DNA of 64,000 nt from contig JAQGBZ010000077.1 in the NCBI GenBank assembly GCA_034687125.1, positions 124,001 to 188,000 on the forward strand, given 5' to 3'. The DNA is from Neelides folsomi (lineage: Eukaryota; Arthropoda; Collembola; Neelipleona; Neelidae). This document shows positions 1,924-13,500 of this stretch, in pieces. Below the pieces are notes generated by a model, which was given only the letters and a program-made list of their open reading frames with translations, did no database searches and was not told the DNA's origin. The translations under genes were made by a program, and so were the position numbers. Within the stretch, counting starts at the first letter, position 1. Each line of letters opens with the position of its first letter.

Positions 1924-4332
1924 TTAAAAATGGTTCAATGACGGAAATTTTTCTCGAAGGATATCAACACTCTTCCTTATGTCGAAATCGTTTTGTTCGA
2001 CGACGGCCCTCACCGTTTCAATGTCCACCTTGCCGTCTAGAATTGTAAATACAATTCTTTGAGCTCTGTCTTTCAACTTGGCATTAACTGGGTTAAGATC
2101 AACCATAAGATTCTCTAAACATTTTCCATATTGAACCATCGAGAGGGTCGTAAGGATGTTGAGAACAAGTTTTGTTCCTGACCCGGCCTTTAATCTTGTT
2201 GACCCAGTGAGGATCTCAGGTCCAGCAGAAACACAAATTAAATGGTCAAGAGTCAATTTCATTTCTAAATAAGGATTAAAGTAAAGCAGAGCTGTTGTTG
2301 CTCCTGCACATTTAGCTCCATATAATGCCCCCCATACGAAAGGTGTTGTTCCTGAAGCCGCAATTCCTATTTAATTAACGATAATTTTATCATTATTAAA
2401 TTACAAGAAAATTGATTATCATCATAAAATAGTAATTTAGAATTATTATGGATTACCAATTACTACATCATTAGAGCAGAGATTCATTTCTTCAACCGCT
2501 TCAACACCTTTAGACACATAATCCTCAGCACCTTCCACAGATTTAAATACTGCAGGTTTTCCTCCAGCTGAAAATAAGAAAAAATATAAAAATCTTTCGA
2601 TTTTTAAGTTTTTGACTAATAATGATAATTGTAGTAAATATTTCTACCAATAATTCCTTGAACCCAATTCGGTGGAGCTTTAAATGTCGGAGGGCATTCA
2701 CTTGCATCCAAAATTCCGAGTCGGCCACTCGTCCCAGCTCCTACATAAATGAGCCTTCCAGAATTCCTGTATGCATTCGTGATCTTCTTAACAAGAATTT
2801 CAATCGTTTCTTTATGCTCGGCAATTTTGGCATGAATATTGGACTCTTCGTTGAGCATCAGGTCAACTCCCTCCGGTATGCTCATGGTGTCCAACTTGAA
2901 CGATTTTGGATTCCTCTCTTCAGTAAGGGAAAGTTGGGTCTTTATTGGAAGTACAAGTTTCCGCAATTCTTCTTCGCTCATCCTCACACTTCTCATCCGG
3001 GTAAAATCTCCTTTCCCTTCCCATACATTTTGGAGTTTGCGGAAGGCTCCATGAACTGTTTCTTCTAAAATGGCAAATGTGATTTTCACAGATGGGCCAA
3101 GCTCAGCTTCCAACATTTCTCTCAATTCTTGAGAAAACCGGACGTTTTTGGTAAGGACACTTCCAGTTAATCCAATTTTAACTTTAATTGGCTCGGTGTA
3201 TGATGAGCCGCCGAGTTTCCTGACAAGAGCTGAAGCATCTGCCACGATGTTCCGAAGGGCTGATTGAACAATATGGTCAGAGATCTCATTCCCCTTTCGG
3301 GCTTCAAAATCTTGAGTGATGAGTTCACATATTGAAGCGATGGAATCAGGGGACGCTGAAAGCGTCCAGTCTGTCAACTCGGACAATTTTCCAAGACCCA
3401 AACGGGCATAAATTCTTTCAAGGAGTTCGGATTCACCCTTGTACTCGAATTCCGTCACAGCTTTTCTTAGGCCTTTGTGACCGATGAAATATGCCGACCC
3501 GTGGCTTCCTAAAATTTTCCCATGGCCGCCTATTTTAATTACTTCCTTTGTATCCACATTTGTTCCATAACAAACGGACCCGGTTCCGGAAATAATTATC
3601 ATTCTCACATTCACATCCGTGTAATCGTCGAGACATGACAATGATATTTCAGAATCTCCTCCGGTCCAGATTTCTTCTAAATTGTCCCAGACTTTATTCA
3701 CAAGTTCTCGAACAATCTGAAAATAATTTTAATTAATCAAAATTAATCGTTTATTTTAGTATGAATCTTATCAGAATGAAAAATTATTAACATTTATAAT
3801 AAAGGAATTGAACGTTTAACCGGCGTCATTTAAAGTGCTAGCAAACTAAATAGCTAATTATCAATATTATTTATCATAGTTTAGCGAACATACAAACCAA
3901 TAGGTTTAAATTCTTGGTAGAAAGAATACATTAAAAAGGTAAATGTATTCATATCTCATTTTATTTTATAGCAAAGAAATTATAATAACTTTTTTAATCC
4001 TCAAGTTATTTATTTTCTACTCCTTAAATATACGTATAGCATGTGGTTTGGTTTAGTTTTATTAACTATACTCCTATGTATTCATAAAGTTAATGTCGAC
4101 TTACATTTTTATCCTCAAGGGTGGCGAGGCCAGCCATGCCAATTGCGACTCTTCTAACATTGCCATTGACCTTACTCTTTATCGCACGAAGAAATTCTTC
4201 AAGCTTGTTCGGATTCGGATCCCTTTGAATGAATTTGTAATTTCCAGGGCCAAAGGTATATTTCTTCGTGGGTTCGGATTCTAACACCGCCACAGAGTGA
4301 CTTCCTCCACACTCGATCGCAAGGGACGTCAT
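1924..4332 (-). CDS. Fused BadF/NAGK-type sugar kinase and MurQ-type N-acetylmuramic acid 6-phosphate etherase
   Basis: Exons in coding order: 4332-4105, 3716-2648, 2567-2457, 2366-1924; phases agree and give 616 aa. Residues 1-310 form a BadF/BcrA/NAGK-type ATPase: an N-terminal IECGGSHS phosphate loop, a GMAGL strand, an Asp pair at 106-107, ISGTGS at 118-123 and GSHGSAYFIG near 146. NAGKs usually have DE where this has SH at 147-148. Residues from about 335 form a MurQ SIS-domain etherase, with LTEERNP, YVGAGTSGRLGILDASECPP, VEGAED, PEILTGSTRLKAG and NLMVDLNPVNAKL. Glu416 and Glu447 align by spacing with Glu83 and Glu114, required in E. coli MurQ. The tail resembles the UBA-like end of MurQ. 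Bacterial MurQ releases D-lactate from MurNAc-6-phosphate, giving GlcNAc-6-phosphate; related kinases phosphorylate GlcNAc or MurNAc. A single-protein kinase plus etherase route is inferred. The intact glutamates argue against a GCKR-like regulator. Confidence 0.93.
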
Positions 4333-5859: not shown

Positions 5860-8800
5860 TTATTCATTGGAGCCTCTGTCATCATGTTGTGTCTCTTTGG
5901 CGAGACATGACGAGAGATGAGTGCCAGGGAGCAACTTTTCCCATAGAGCGAGGACAGGGAGGCTCAGAGCTTCCCTCTTCACACCCTTTGACTCCACTCC
6001 CCATTTCCGAATGGCCAAGCTGCTCAAGAGACCCAAGACAATCGACAATACTGACCCAAGAAGAGAATTCCACAAATATGACATGCTGAGGATCCTAATC
6101 CCTCCGCTGTCATCTCTTTCTTTCCACGCTTTCCCTGGGAAACTCTCATATTCCTCTGATATGCATTCTTCGGTTGACAGAGGAAGCCGTTGGTCCGGAA
6201 GTTCTGATGCTTCCAAGTAACCCGCTATTGAATATGAAGCCATGATTCCAAAGGTCGAGAGCATTCCAATGATGGCTCCTCTTGTGTTGGCCCAAGGGAA
6301 GAAAATGCCTTTGATATAAAATTTTAAAAATATCGTTAATTATTGCATTTGCAGTTTAATCATATCTAATGTAATGCATTCTCGGTTAAGCCGAATGAAC
6401 TTTTCAAATGTTTAAAGGTAAGTAACAAATAGTAAATTTCAAAATCAAATATCACTACCTAAATGTGTATTATAATCATAATTTGTAAAAATAATGAGCA
6501 CATTAAATACAATCACATAAAGTCTAAAACTTCTTATATTACTCATTTCAATCATTGAACAATGGCATTATTACGTAATTCAGAATTGTCATCAGATTTT
6601 TCAGAAAAAAAGCTATGAATAAGGTAATTCTGGACAAATATTTACAAAACTCAAGCTGAGATATTTAATATATTTCATTCATTTTTATATAAATATTGAA
6701 TCAGATTCATTTTATCATTTTCTTTCATTCTTGTTAAAGTGACGATCAATAGAGGATATTTACCTAATGAAAACACGCCAAAAACTGGGCCAATGATAAT
6801 TCCGAGAAGGCTCGAGGTCGCCTTTAAAGATAAGAAACGTTTGAGTTAAGCGTAACATTTGGAACTAACCGTTAATGGGTAATTAAAAGTTAGATCTTAC
6901 TGGCAATATATTTCCCATCTTTTCCACAGCGAATACAAACAAATAAGAAAGAACTCCAAAGATTGCAGAGTTAACTTTAGATATTAGCGATAATTGAGTA
7001 TCATTTAATTTAGGATACAATTTGTTGACATAATCATAAGTCGTAATTGAAGCCAAAGCAGTGATTCCACTAGAGAGAGTACTGTAAAATACAGTAATAA
7101 TAGTAATACATATTTTAATATAAATCAATCTATACTTGAGTGTGATAATAAAGATAAACTGAGGATGAAATAAATAAGAAACCTCATGCTGGCACAAACG
7201 AGACCAGCTACAAAAAGGCCAAGAAGTCCATTGACATCTCTTGTCGTTTCTTCTACAAAATGAGGAACTAGTTGATCTGACTTGGATACTATCTGGAAAG
7301 ATAAGAATTATGAGGTCAAAATTGTCAGTTATTTCAATATTAACCAAAATATCAAATATATCAAATATCAAGTATATCGAAATAATATTTACGTATAGGA
7401 GAATTTTATGGAGAAAGTTGAATTAATAATTATGTTAGGCTTGCCTTTGCAGTTATCGGATCACAATTATGATATTTGGCAAATATAACCAATCCGGCAA
7501 ATAGACAAAGACCCACAATTACAACAAGCCCAATTAAGTTTATAAATAAGGCTCTAGAAGTCAAAATGGACATAAAATGGTTAATTGTTGTGTTATTTAC
7601 AAGTATTATATTATTTTGTTGGATATTATACCTTCTTGCTATTTTTATATTTGGCATTGAAAGAAATCTTTGTACTTGAATTTGAGTTGCAGCATAAAAC
7701 GGTATACTAAAAAATATGTTTATTATAGGAAGTCATAATATAATGCCATGTTTCAATCCTTGATTTTAAGATCAATGACATTTTATGAATTTCTTACAAA
7801 AAGAAATATCCTCCAATAATACTCGTCCATACAGTATGCCTTGTTCTCGGATCAGGGTCAAAACTAAAGCATTTAATTTATATAATTTTGTACACAACTT
7901 ATGGTTAGGTAAGTAATAAACGACATGTAATCTTATAAGATAAACTTAATTATCAATCGTCAAACTTTAAAAATTCAACTCGTCCTCCTTCCTCGGCTCT
8001 TTTCCAAATAACAGAAAGTCCTCCAATATCCGAAACTCCTTTGATTGTAATGGCTGTTAGTGAGGCTAACATTATAAAAGCTTGGAGAACGTCTGTCCAC
8101 AACACAGCTTTCAATCCTCCCTATATTATAAAGAGAAAAGCATATTTCATATTCTTGGTTTAAGAACTACTATACAGGGTGAGTCTAAAGTCGTTTCCGA
8201 TTCTGAATCCGAAAAGATTAGAAATCGGAAACGACTTTAGACACACCCTGTACGCATATTTTATTCATGGTCAATTCAGTAATTACATAATTTATTAATG
8301 TTTATTATTTTAAGTGAAGTTAATATTATTTTATGTCACTTGCCAAAGATGAATAAAATATGCAAACTAAATAAATAATCCCAGTGGTCAATTTGGTGCT
8401 GATTCCGGTGACTTGATTTATGGCGAGAGCTGGAGCATATACAGCAATTGCCATTGAAGCAACGATGTGGATTAGACCCAAGAGTGAAATAACAAAACGA
8501 AGAGATTTGTCAAACCTAATTTCAATATACTACACAATTTATTGTCACAATTGCATGTTATTGTTTTACCTCATAAGCCGACTTGATATTTAAATTGAAA
8601 TAAACGGGGATGTAGAGGTAAGCGAGACTAAGGTTAAATGGAATGAAACTCAAAATGATGAAGATGTATTGAGTTCCATACAAGTATATTTCAACAGGAT
8701 ATCCGAGAAGCGTTATTGCAGAAACTGCACTGTAAAAATGTAGTTTCAATTTTTAATTAACTTTTGGTAATAATATTCGCATGTAATGGGACTCTCATAT

Positions 8801-9009
8801 ATACGGTCTGTAAGGTTATAATTTTTCTACCTGCACATTAGTGAAAGTGCTACTGGAAAAGAAGACATTTGGCTATTGGCCATAAGGAACTCTTTGGTTG
8901 TTTTTTGTTTCGACCCGAAAAATCCATAAAATACACCAATACCCACCGATGAAAGAAGAGTTAATATAAATATTGTATAATCTAGCCAGTGAAGATCTCG
9001 CTCCGCCAT
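5860..9009 (-). CDS. SLC5 sodium:solute symporter (monocarboxylate/multivitamin transporter-like)
   Basis: Eleven exons: 9009-8831, 8729-8570, 8529-8344, 8120-7966, 7863-7798, 7706-7632, 7553-7445, 7292-7183, 7081-6901, 6821-6764, 6308-5860; 575 aa, the usual SLC5 length. The protein starts MAERDLHWLDYTIFI, entering the first membrane helix. SLC5 landmarks in order: LGYPVEIYLYG, YAPALAINQVTG, GGLKAVLWTDVLQ (the family signature), NFDPDPRTRHTVW, QVQRFLSMP, CDPITAK, LPxxF-type GLLGLFVAGL and MSTLSSGITALASITTYD. These are typical of the SLC5A5/A6/A8/A12 branch, which imports iodide, biotin/pantothenate or lactate-type anions with sodium across the plasma membrane. The substrate cannot be told from sequence alone. 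The exon 3 and exon 7 donors are GC rather than GT, and intron 3 holds a small MITE. The C-terminal tail after the last helix is charged and cytosolic. Confidence 0.95.
8173..8252. mobile_element. 76-bp TA-flanked mariner-like MITE in symporter intron 3
   Basis: Two near-perfect inverted arms of about 31-35 bp face each other: CAGGGTGAGTCTAAAGTCGT on the left and its counterpart ending ACACACCCTG on the right. TA dinucleotides flank the element at 8173-8174 and 8251-8252, as expected for Tc1/mariner target duplications. It has no coding capacity, so it is a non-autonomous or solo-hairpin element. Confidence 0.85.
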
Positions 9010-10580: not shown

Positions 10581-13500
10581 ATGGATTCCAATCCTGAGGT
10601 GTCTTGCCACATTGGAAAAAATGTTCCTTGGGCAAAACTTCCACCAAAGGTCAAAGAGGTAAACCAAATAACAACGATTGAATTTTTCAAATAATTGATG
10701 CCAATGTTAAAATAAAATGATTGAGCTTGATTTAATAATCAAACATTTTTTGATAACAGATTTTTGGGAATGCAGTTAAAGGATACGAGAAAGCTGTCAT
10801 TTCTTATAGCGTTCGCAATCAGCTCAGATATTCAGAAAATTTAGGTTCTCATTTAATTAAAATCCTTATAATTAAAATCTAATAATTATACACATGCACA
10901 TCACTAAAAAGATGTTCTAATGAAACACATTTTTGTACAGTTAAGACAATACGTAAAGACGAAGGGAAATATTATGAAGATATTGTGAATTACAGCAAAG
11001 ATCATTTAATGCTTTATCCTTATCACCTCTCCGATCGAATTGTTAAGGGTTTGAGAATAACTCCGTTTTTGTATTATATCTCGGTGCTTGAGAAAATAAT
11101 GGAACAAGAAAAAAGTTATGATTCATTACCGAATTTTACAGCTGCTGATTGTGAGTATATTAAAAATGTGCAATTAGTAATAATACACCTATTTTATTTT
11201 TCTTCGTAATATGTATTATTTAATGTTCTCTATTTCATTCAATTTATTACAAAACAATTGGATGAATTTATATCGTTTATTATTTAGGCCTACGATTGCT
11301 TGGAATTGGAAGAAATCAATACATTGAATTGATGAATCAACACAGGTCAAGTCGAAAGTTATTCCGTAGAAAGCCTCCAAGAGAATTGTTGCCAATTAAA
11401 CCTGTCGACGTAGCGATTGAGCCATGGTTTATCATTCAAGTTGGTTATATAACTGAAGAAGACATAATGACAATTAAAGAAAATGAGAAAAAAATTATCG
11501 ATTTTCTGATTGATAATCGAGGACAAAAAGCCGGAATATTCGACTCTGATGGTGTAAAGGTGCTTTACAGAAAAGGTCTTATTTACTTTGATGTTCCAAT
11601 TCAAAGTGATGATTACATCGTCGTTCCTCCTCTTGAGGGATTTGTGATGAACAGAGTTCTTGGGGATTATTTTGAGACCTTACTTTATAAAATCTTTGTC
11701 TCGATTGATGAACACACCACTGTTGAAGATGTAATTTTCCATTTTTTATTAAAATTATAGTTGATAATGCACATTAAATATGTTTTAATTGTGTATGAAT
11801 TACTACTTAATTTTAATTAAATGATTTACATTATTGATTTTATTTAATCTAGTTGGCCACTGTACTTGATATTGACCAGCAATTGATCAAGAACGCAGTA
11901 TCGTTATATTGCCGTCTTGGATTTGCTTATAAAAAGAACCTTGACATTGATTACAATCAACTCGACGCAAGTTGGAGAAATCACCAACCACAATTTCATA
12001 AAAGGTATGGGATTTTTAGAAAAGGATTTTTTAAATTAAAGGTTAAAAAGCATATGTTAGATATAGGTGATAACGTTAATTTTTTATTTTCAGTAAATCG
12101 TACATAGGGCCAGAAGATTTGATGAATGATTTACGAGCCGCGATGAATGAACCTGAAAGTCGCAATCGAACGCCAGAACCGAACATTTCACATTCGGAAC
12201 TTTCTCCATCACTTCTATCGACATCACATTCCATGACGAATTTTTCTTCTGTCGCTAAACGGATCGCATTCCTTTATGATTCCACGCTCACTGCATACCT
12301 TATGATGGGAAATTTATCACCCGTAATTCACATTCTTAAAAATTTATCATTTTTTAATAATTGTTTCTCATTATTTAATTTGTTTTCCATATTAAAGGGT
12401 TTAAAGAACCATGCTGTTACAATGTTTGAGGTTGGGAAAATGGCAGATGAGTCATTGGATAGCTTTATCACTGAACTTGAAAATATATCTTGGACGGAGG
12501 GAGAAGGAGAAGCTCAACGCTACTTTGAGCACGCAATTACTTTAAGGAAAACCATCATGTTTTTAAGAAATAACCCAAGATTGGGTTCAATGGCCCTTGA
12601 TTTACTCCGGTGTGAAAGTCTCCTCAATTTGGATTCACAGACTTGTTCGAGGCTTTTAAACAAAAATTATGGGTAAGTTTGTGGATTAAATTAAGTATCA
12701 AAAAAGACAGCAATTAGTGCTAATTTGTATTTATTTAAAGCATTGAGAGATTTTAATGATCACAATTTTATTGTAGTTTATTAGTTTCAATGGCGCCTTT
12801 GAGTTACGAAGTTATGCCTGTTTGTTGTGAAAATCTTCCTCAGTTTGGTCCAGCCATTCCAGAAGTGAATTCAATTTGGTTCAAATTGTTTCTTTATTCT
12901 TCAATCCAAAGTGGTCCAACTTCTCTTCTTTTACCAAGAGGTGATCCTCTTTTCTTTACAAAGAAATTAAGATTAACGACTTTTGTTTAAATTTAGGGAC
13001 GACCATATATGAATTACCACCAGAATTGGAAGACTGTGACAAATATTTAGTAACTTCATGGGATCATGATCCCGGTGTTATTCCTGGTTCAAATGTACTT
13101 TTTACACTTACTGAAACTCTTTCGCATTCTTCCGTTCTTGTGCAAGCATATGGAACTCAAGGCGAGTCATCAACAGGTATTTTAAACACTTTAAATGGTT
13201 AATAATTGACTTTTAATTGTAAATATTATAATAAACGCATATTTATCTTTGTTACGTATGAGTACGCATGAGCTCAAAATTCATTAATTCTTTGAATATA
13301 TATATTTTTTTGAAATATTCCAGTCATAGTTCCATTCCCATTTCCCAAAAAGAATAAAACTGAAGGAGGTGGAGACGAAAATGTGTTTGATTCAAGGTGG
13401 ATAAAACATCCTAGTATATTGAAGCTATCCAGACTCATCGATCTTGAGCGGAATGTTGGGTTCATCACAATGGTGAACGTACGGGGATCAAATTTGCAAG

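Follow-up and report, generated by a model that had tools for sequence, protein, structure and literature searches.

Animals are generally believed to sense peptidoglycan or to dispose of it, and MurNAc catabolism is not usually ascribed to them. Among animal proteins, the recognised relative of the bacterial etherase MurQ is the vertebrate protein GCKR (GKRP), whose origin from MurQ was reportedly described in a 2009 Biochem J paper; it has two SIS domains and no kinase, and its N-terminal SIS domain lacks the first of the two catalytic Glu residues of MurQ. In the accessible sections of the relevant papers, bacterial-type MurQ is reported from Naegleria, Bodo saltans and other protists (PMC7052976), and a Spiroplasma-derived murQ gene from eight species of Camponotini ants, where the transfer is called previously unreported and potentially unique to Camponotini and where a kinase fusion goes unmentioned (PMC13320244). 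On the kinase side, and again from the accessible text, human NAGK phosphorylates both MurNAc and muramyl dipeptide, the latter at C6 of the MurNAc moiety (PMC9477735), so that phosphorylation of MurNAc in an animal is chemically plausible. In MurK of T. forsythia, the sugar is bound at its C4 and C6 hydroxyls by the catalytic D95 and at its C1 hydroxyl by D141 (PMC10465942).

The gene described here resembles the ant case in that a murQ gene lies in an arthropod-like genome; here it is fused behind a kinase. No kinase-MurQ fusion in an animal was found in the literature searched, which was largely open-access. The architecture itself is already present in bacteria.

The fusion gene and its host genome

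The window analysed is a stretch of 64,000 nucleotides, in which the gene runs on the minus strand from 4332 to 1924. Its splicing pattern, predicted from the DNA, joins four exons (Table 1) into a CDS of 1851 nt that encodes 616 aa plus a stop codon, and every one of the three introns is of the GT...AG type and 77-84% AT. Exon 2 contains zero stops in the coding frame vs. 11-23 in each of the other five frames, and in 30 first-order Markov shuffles of the window stop-free runs reached 157 codons at most. Since this one unbroken exon spans most of the kinase together with the start of the etherase, we regard the fusion as real. It occupies a single locus in the genome (75.1 Mb, 840 contigs searched). 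The sequence-only reading had proposed a 616-aa frame over four exons with a kinase half and a MurQ half, and the GT-AG splicing and the stop-free exon 2 bear this out; its placement of Glu416 in DASECPP and Glu447 in VEGAED, with a spacing of 31, was recovered from the spliced frame and its codons.

Table 1. Features of the fusion gene and of other loci named in the text (positions in the window, except for the two bacterial fusions, which are given in their own sequences)
Feature	Position	Strand	Description
Exon 1 (228 nt)	4105..4332	-	residues 1-76; start codon, phosphate-binding loop ECGGSHS, sugar-site N31; donor GTAAGT
Intron 1 (388 bp)	3717..4104	-	GTAAGT...TTTTCAG
Exon 2 (1069 nt)	2648..3716	-	residues 77-432: most of the kinase, linker, first part of MurQ; frame uninterrupted
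D97, kinase catalytic Asp	3654..3656	-	Asp in 107/107 other rows; role from the accessible text of PMC10465942
S147-H148 (GSHGS)	3501..3506	-	replaces D-E of GDEGS; D in 106/107 other rows
Linker between kinase and MurQ	2937..3026	-	about residues 307-336, within exon 2
E416 of LDASECPP	2697..2699	-	E in 96/96 other rows; codon checked
Intron 2 (80 bp)	2568..2647	-	GTAGAA...TTTTCAG
Exon 3 (111 nt)	2457..2567	-	residues 433-469
E447 of VEGAED	2524..2526	-	E in 96/96 other rows; codon checked
Intron 3 (90 bp)	2367..2456	-	GTAATC...AAATAG
Exon 4 (443 nt)	1924..2366	-	residues 470-616 and stop; C-terminus diverges from, and stops short of, bacterial MurQ
FAM91 gene exons	11266-12676	+	FAM91_N 222.7 bits, FAM91_C 179.3 bits
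MurQ-kinase fusion L072	3092-4903		Gemmataceae/Gemmata
MurQ-kinase fusion L133	1203-3098	-	Gemmataceae/Gemmata

The three introns and the FAM91 exons nearby show that the gene is eukaryotic and argue against a bacterial contaminant. The assembly has 39 matches to the cuticle family Chitin_bind_4, and its mitochondrial contig reads TGA as Trp and has the order nad2-cox1-cox2-atp6 (gene names assigned by eye); the cuticle matches and the mitochondrial code and gene order look like those of an arthropod host. The cox1 and cox2 frames are separated by some 40 nt, too little for a tRNA, a spacing that would suit chelicerates or myriapods better than insects or crustaceans. The fusion is a real and intact gene of what seems to be an arthropod with a small genome.

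Beside the fusion gene, on the minus strand at 5860-9009, lie exons that by eye resemble a sodium-coupled transporter of the SLC5 type, of which two gave no Pfam match when searched singly. On the plus strand, a multi-exon gene at 119-1569 converges tail to tail on the fusion gene. By eye it ends in a transmembrane segment followed by a basic tail, and no Pfam family matches the last exon.

An exon-level search of the assembly with Pfam PF01869 turned up no further BadF/NAGK-type kinase, and the N-terminal half of human NAGK matched only the fusion gene (E 0.0015) in an exon-level search, which can miss split genes. An exon-level search of the assembly for AnmK likewise found none. If real, the absence of NAGK would be notable, given that Drosophila has one, CG6218, according to the accessible part of PMC9477735.

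The MurQ half and the kinase half

Residues 337-606 score 313 bits against the NCBIfam MurQ subfamily model NF003915 (cut-off 168) and 272.2 bits against NF009222 (cut-off 255). The equivalog model TIGR00274 has a cut-off of 302 bits, which the animal protein misses with 279.8 bits and which all four bacterial MurQ proteins compared exceed, with 368-390 bits; the animal protein is therefore assigned to the MurQ subfamily and not to the equivalog. The Pfam domain GKRP_SIS_N is matched as well, at 69.9 bits (cut-off 27). Solved MurQ structures match this half at 210-223 bits, the H. influenzae chains 1nri and 4lzj at 223, whereas GKRP chains reach at most 74. Compared with bacterial MurQ (1nri/4lzj, 4s12), the animal protein is 49% identical to 1nri over 243 columns but sits behind a kinase, is encoded by a four-exon gene and has a shorter, different C-terminus.

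For residue counts, 110 loci had a MurQ match, of which 94 were kept together with two PDB chains (n=96); the rows dropped were eight exact repeats and eight without the trimming motif (L065, L074, L124-L128, L162). Aligned with these 96 sequences, the MurQ half agrees at 52 of 60 near-invariant columns; of its eight departures, six lie at or past residue 592, in the earlier-ending C-terminal tail. Both catalytic positions are Glu in all 96 relatives and in the fusion protein; we take E416 to be the equivalent of E. coli MurQ Glu83 and E447 that of Glu114, in numbering and catalytic roles presumed from the E. coli work. At the E416 position, the N-terminal SIS domains of rat and Xenopus GKRP carry Ser. 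Hence, on the MurQ scores, the conserved columns, the two Glu residues and the Ser of GKRP, residues 337-606 are MurQ and not GCKR, just as the sequence-only reading had claimed, and this half is very probably an etherase.

The kinase half scores 28.2 bits against Pfam PF01869 (BcrAD_BadFG), under the cut-off of 31.5. Its best solved relative is the MurNAc/GlcNAc kinase 8zo3, a MurK (1.2e-18, 70.6 bits), with which it has in common the catalytic Asp and a hydrophobic residue after GTGS; human NAGK (2ch5/2ch6), of the same kinase superfamily but unfused, is a weak match (2.1e-4, 23.7 bits), and the human NAGK fragment is itself closer to 8zo3 (51 bits) than to the fusion kinase. By sequence, then, bacterial kinases are nearer relatives of the kinase half than human NAGK is. 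Among 121 loci, 105 were kept together with three PDB chains, and human NAGK was excluded from the residue counts (n=107); 13 rows were dropped as presumed copies, of which L105, L108 and L129 are only 76-93% alike to the nearest kept row, and L120, L126 and L127 were dropped because they were short or lacked a motif. D97 (the catalytic Asp) and T121 and G122 of the ATP-binding GTG motif are invariant in these 107 rows and kept in the fusion kinase, as is N31 (N in 97/107).

The departure, which the sequence-only reading did not mention, is in the GDEGS motif: position 147 is Ser, whereas 106 of the 107 relatives have Asp and the remaining one Asn, and position 148 is His in place of Glu (84/107); 8zo3 has Asp-Glu at these positions. 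The residue absent from the fusion kinase is thus the sugar-binding Asp, D152 in human NAGK and, by offset, D141 in T. forsythia MurK: the accessible text of PMC10465942 equates NAGK G145 with MurK P134, and a constant offset then makes NAGK D152, MurK D141 and S147 equivalent. We infer from this that Ser147 replaces an Asp that contacts the sugar C1 hydroxyl in MurK, in which case its loss would affect sugar binding on the anomeric side and not the catalytic base. MurNAc specificity was considered as the cause of Ser147 and rejected, because the Asp is retained in bacterial kinases whose genes adjoin murQ. The earlier identification of a BadF/NAGK-type kinase therefore stands as far as D97, T121, G122 and the 8zo3 match are concerned and is weakened by the loss of the near-invariant sugar-site Asp. 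That is, the kinase half is possibly altered, would work at most like the BadF/NAGK/MurK family, and is assigned neither as NAGK nor as MurK.

Bacterial kinase-murQ pairs and the origin of the fusion

Kinase and murQ genes are frequent neighbours in bacteria, above all in Poribacteria. A contig scan with the kinase half confirmed 236 loci; among the best 80 of these, the top eleven are all from Poribacteria (28-32% identity), and murQ is the next gene downstream of the kinase in 13 of 14 Poribacteria loci, the 14th ending at the contig end. Of the Poribacteria genomes searched, 56 of 58 match the fusion protein at E 0.001, and in seven of the 58 the match follows one path from residue 4/5 to 579-593 at 37-39% identity (best 1.8e-94), running through one or two in-frame stops. 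Matches elsewhere involve mostly the MurQ half, namely in 17/150 genomes of Pseudomonadota (1e-10), 106/148 of the phylum of the Ignavibacteria locus (here Bacteroidota; 1e-15) and 43/199 of Bacillota (1e-15). A contig scan with the whole fusion protein, whose query patterns were poorly conserved, gave no match. The two genes also adjoin on plasmids of Thermomicrobium, Bradyrhizobium, Allorhizobium and Rhizobium, with nagA near the Bradyrhizobium pair on the opposite strand. The Poribacteria pair has the genes and the order of the animal gene but consists of two ORFs with stop codons between them, and it keeps the Asp.

Single-ORF fusions occur in bacteria too. L032 (Anaerolineae, 637 aa) and L118 (Pseudomonadota, 626 aa) have the kinase followed by MurQ on one chain, like the animal protein, but keep the Asp (GDEGS/GDEGG), whereas L072 (603 aa) and L133 (631 aa) have MurQ followed by the kinase, an opposite order which indicates that fusion arose more than once. 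An AnmK gene adjoins the L032 fusion, a peptidoglycan-recycling context, and such a bacterial setting fits peptidoglycan salvage. The sequence-only reading had called a complete two-step pathway on one animal polypeptide unusual; given the gene pairs and the four single-ORF fusions, the kinase-MurQ architecture is not new to biology, and the claim is not supported in itself.

A few further features of the bacterial loci were observed. In nine Poribacteria loci (L013, L015, L104-L108, L130, L132) the kinase frame runs past one stop into the murQ frame; this stop is TAG in the six loci read out and also in the matches for the other three. In the two Poribacteria loci tested, a gene for a DUF362 protein follows kinase-murQ (L012, 6037-6993; L016, 6019-7023), and in three Chloroflexota loci (L051, L068, L085) a gene of the beta-lactamase family (PF00144) directly precedes the pair.

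Separate trees for the two halves, as the earlier reading had suggested, place both on long branches. The MurQ tree has a Poribacteria clade of 28 rows, outside which the fusion falls on a branch of 2.15, a placement short of the support threshold. In the kinase tree, its branch of 2.51 belongs to a fork of 23 rows, likewise short of that threshold, whose other members are MurK 8zo3, the human NAGK fragment and, for the most part, Bacillota. The joined tree (55 rows) has it beside Poribacteria on a branch of 3.89, with support of 93/90, just under the threshold, and the best joined tree does not group it with the bacterial fusions L032 and L118. AU tests did not reject grouping the fusion with the clade of L118 and other proteobacteria (p-AU 0.344) or with a Chloroflexota/Planctomycetota clade (p 0.334). 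No donor emerged from the MurQ, kinase and joined trees or the AU tests, but the MurQ half is, on its sequence, clearly of bacterial type. The long branches of both halves could reflect relaxed constraint, a new role or great age.

Proposed function and competing explanations

The explanation we favor, at a tentative probability of roughly 0.46, is that the fusion is a two-domain amino-sugar salvage enzyme that descends from a bacterial kinase-murQ pair by transfer to an animal genome. Under this hypothesis, the pair would have entered the animal genome, been fused before or after that event, and gained introns. The N-terminal kinase would use D97 as the base to phosphorylate MurNAc, or else a related amino sugar or a muropeptide, at its C6 hydroxyl; the MurQ half, with E416 and E447, would eliminate D-lactate from MurNAc-6-phosphate to yield GlcNAc-6-phosphate, which would pass to the animal's own amino-sugar pathway. 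Uptake of MurNAc by the animal cell is assumed. The enzyme activities, the substrate, the direction of transfer and the physiological role are what we infer from the comparisons above. The points against this explanation are Ser147, the TIGR00274 and PF01869 scores under their cut-offs, the long branches, the lack of a donor in the trees, the human NAGK fragment in the fork of the fusion kinase, and the failure to find AnmK. Of the two steps, phosphorylation is the weak one, since Ser147 occupies the place of an Asp that presumably contacts the C1 hydroxyl of the sugar. A complete two-step MurNAc pathway on this protein is plausible but, with a near-invariant sugar-site Asp lost, is not to be presumed; hence, of the earlier proposal of MurNAc phosphorylation followed by ether cleavage, the second step is strengthened by the two conserved Glu residues, and the pathway as a whole is weakened by Ser147.

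Alternatively, only the etherase might work, the kinase being degenerate or regulatory (a domain that binds sugar or ATP but does not turn it over), with bacteria or another host kinase as the source of MurNAc-6-phosphate. The loss of both Asp and Glu from GDEGS is what this would predict, and the kinase half lies below its Pfam cut-off while the MurQ half is far over its subfamily cut-off. However, D97, N31, T121 and G122 are all kept, the lost Asp would by offset contact the C1 and not the C6 hydroxyl (T. forsythia MurK, accessible text of PMC10465942), and the exon-level searches found no AnmK or other NAGK-type kinase to supply the phosphate; we consider this explanation rather unlikely. 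Old eukaryotic inheritance with loss in most animals, instead of transfer, would leave the function as in the favored explanation and would suit the very long branches of both halves as well as the bacterial-type MurQ of protists such as Naegleria and Bodo saltans (PMC7052976). Yet, as far as the accessible text goes, those protist cases concern the etherase and not a kinase-MurQ fusion, and the only animal bacterial-type MurQ in the literature found is the separate, Spiroplasma-derived one of Camponotini (PMC13320244, likewise from its accessible part), so that we regard such inheritance as improbable.

A more speculative proposal, to which we attach a low probability, is that the arthropod's ordinary NAGK was replaced by a bacterial-derived kinase-etherase whose anomeric-side pocket was remodelled (Ser-His for Asp-Glu) for muropeptides or other C1-substituted fragments, with the 6-phospho-muramyl product destroyed at once. 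If true, one enzyme would both feed on and erase the bacterial cell-wall signal.

Fusion of a host NAGK to a transferred bacterial murQ, such that only the etherase would be foreign and the function similar to that of the favored explanation, is very improbable. It would account for the lack of a separate NAGK among the genome matches and for the human NAGK fragment falling in the same kinase-tree fork as the fusion. Against it stand the far better match of the kinase half to MurK 8zo3 than to human NAGK, the greater closeness of the human NAGK fragment itself to 8zo3, and a kinase-murQ order identical to that of the bacterial gene pairs. Equally improbable is a regulator that senses sugar phosphates like vertebrate GCKR and has no enzyme activity: GCKR is an animal relative of MurQ and the Pfam domain is named after GKRP, but bacterial MurQ is a far closer match than any GKRP chain, and membership of GCKR is rejected on the single SIS half joined to a kinase (not two SIS domains) and on the retention of both E416, where rat and Xenopus GKRP have Ser, and E447. 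Finally, the wrong joining of two adjacent genes, or an assembly error, is hardly credible, even though the bacterial relatives are mostly two ORFs, since the junction lies within the single stop-free exon 2 and the genome holds one locus only.

In conclusion, our best reading is that of a MurNAc-salvage enzyme of bacterial descent, in which the etherase is probably active and the kinase appears altered. The altered kinase site poses a sharp question, namely whether the kinase is dead or re-aimed. If active, the fusion would add a second case to the one published animal murQ transfer found, that of Camponotini (accessible part of PMC13320244), and would let an arthropod convert MurNAc enzymatically to GlcNAc-6-phosphate and D-lactate.
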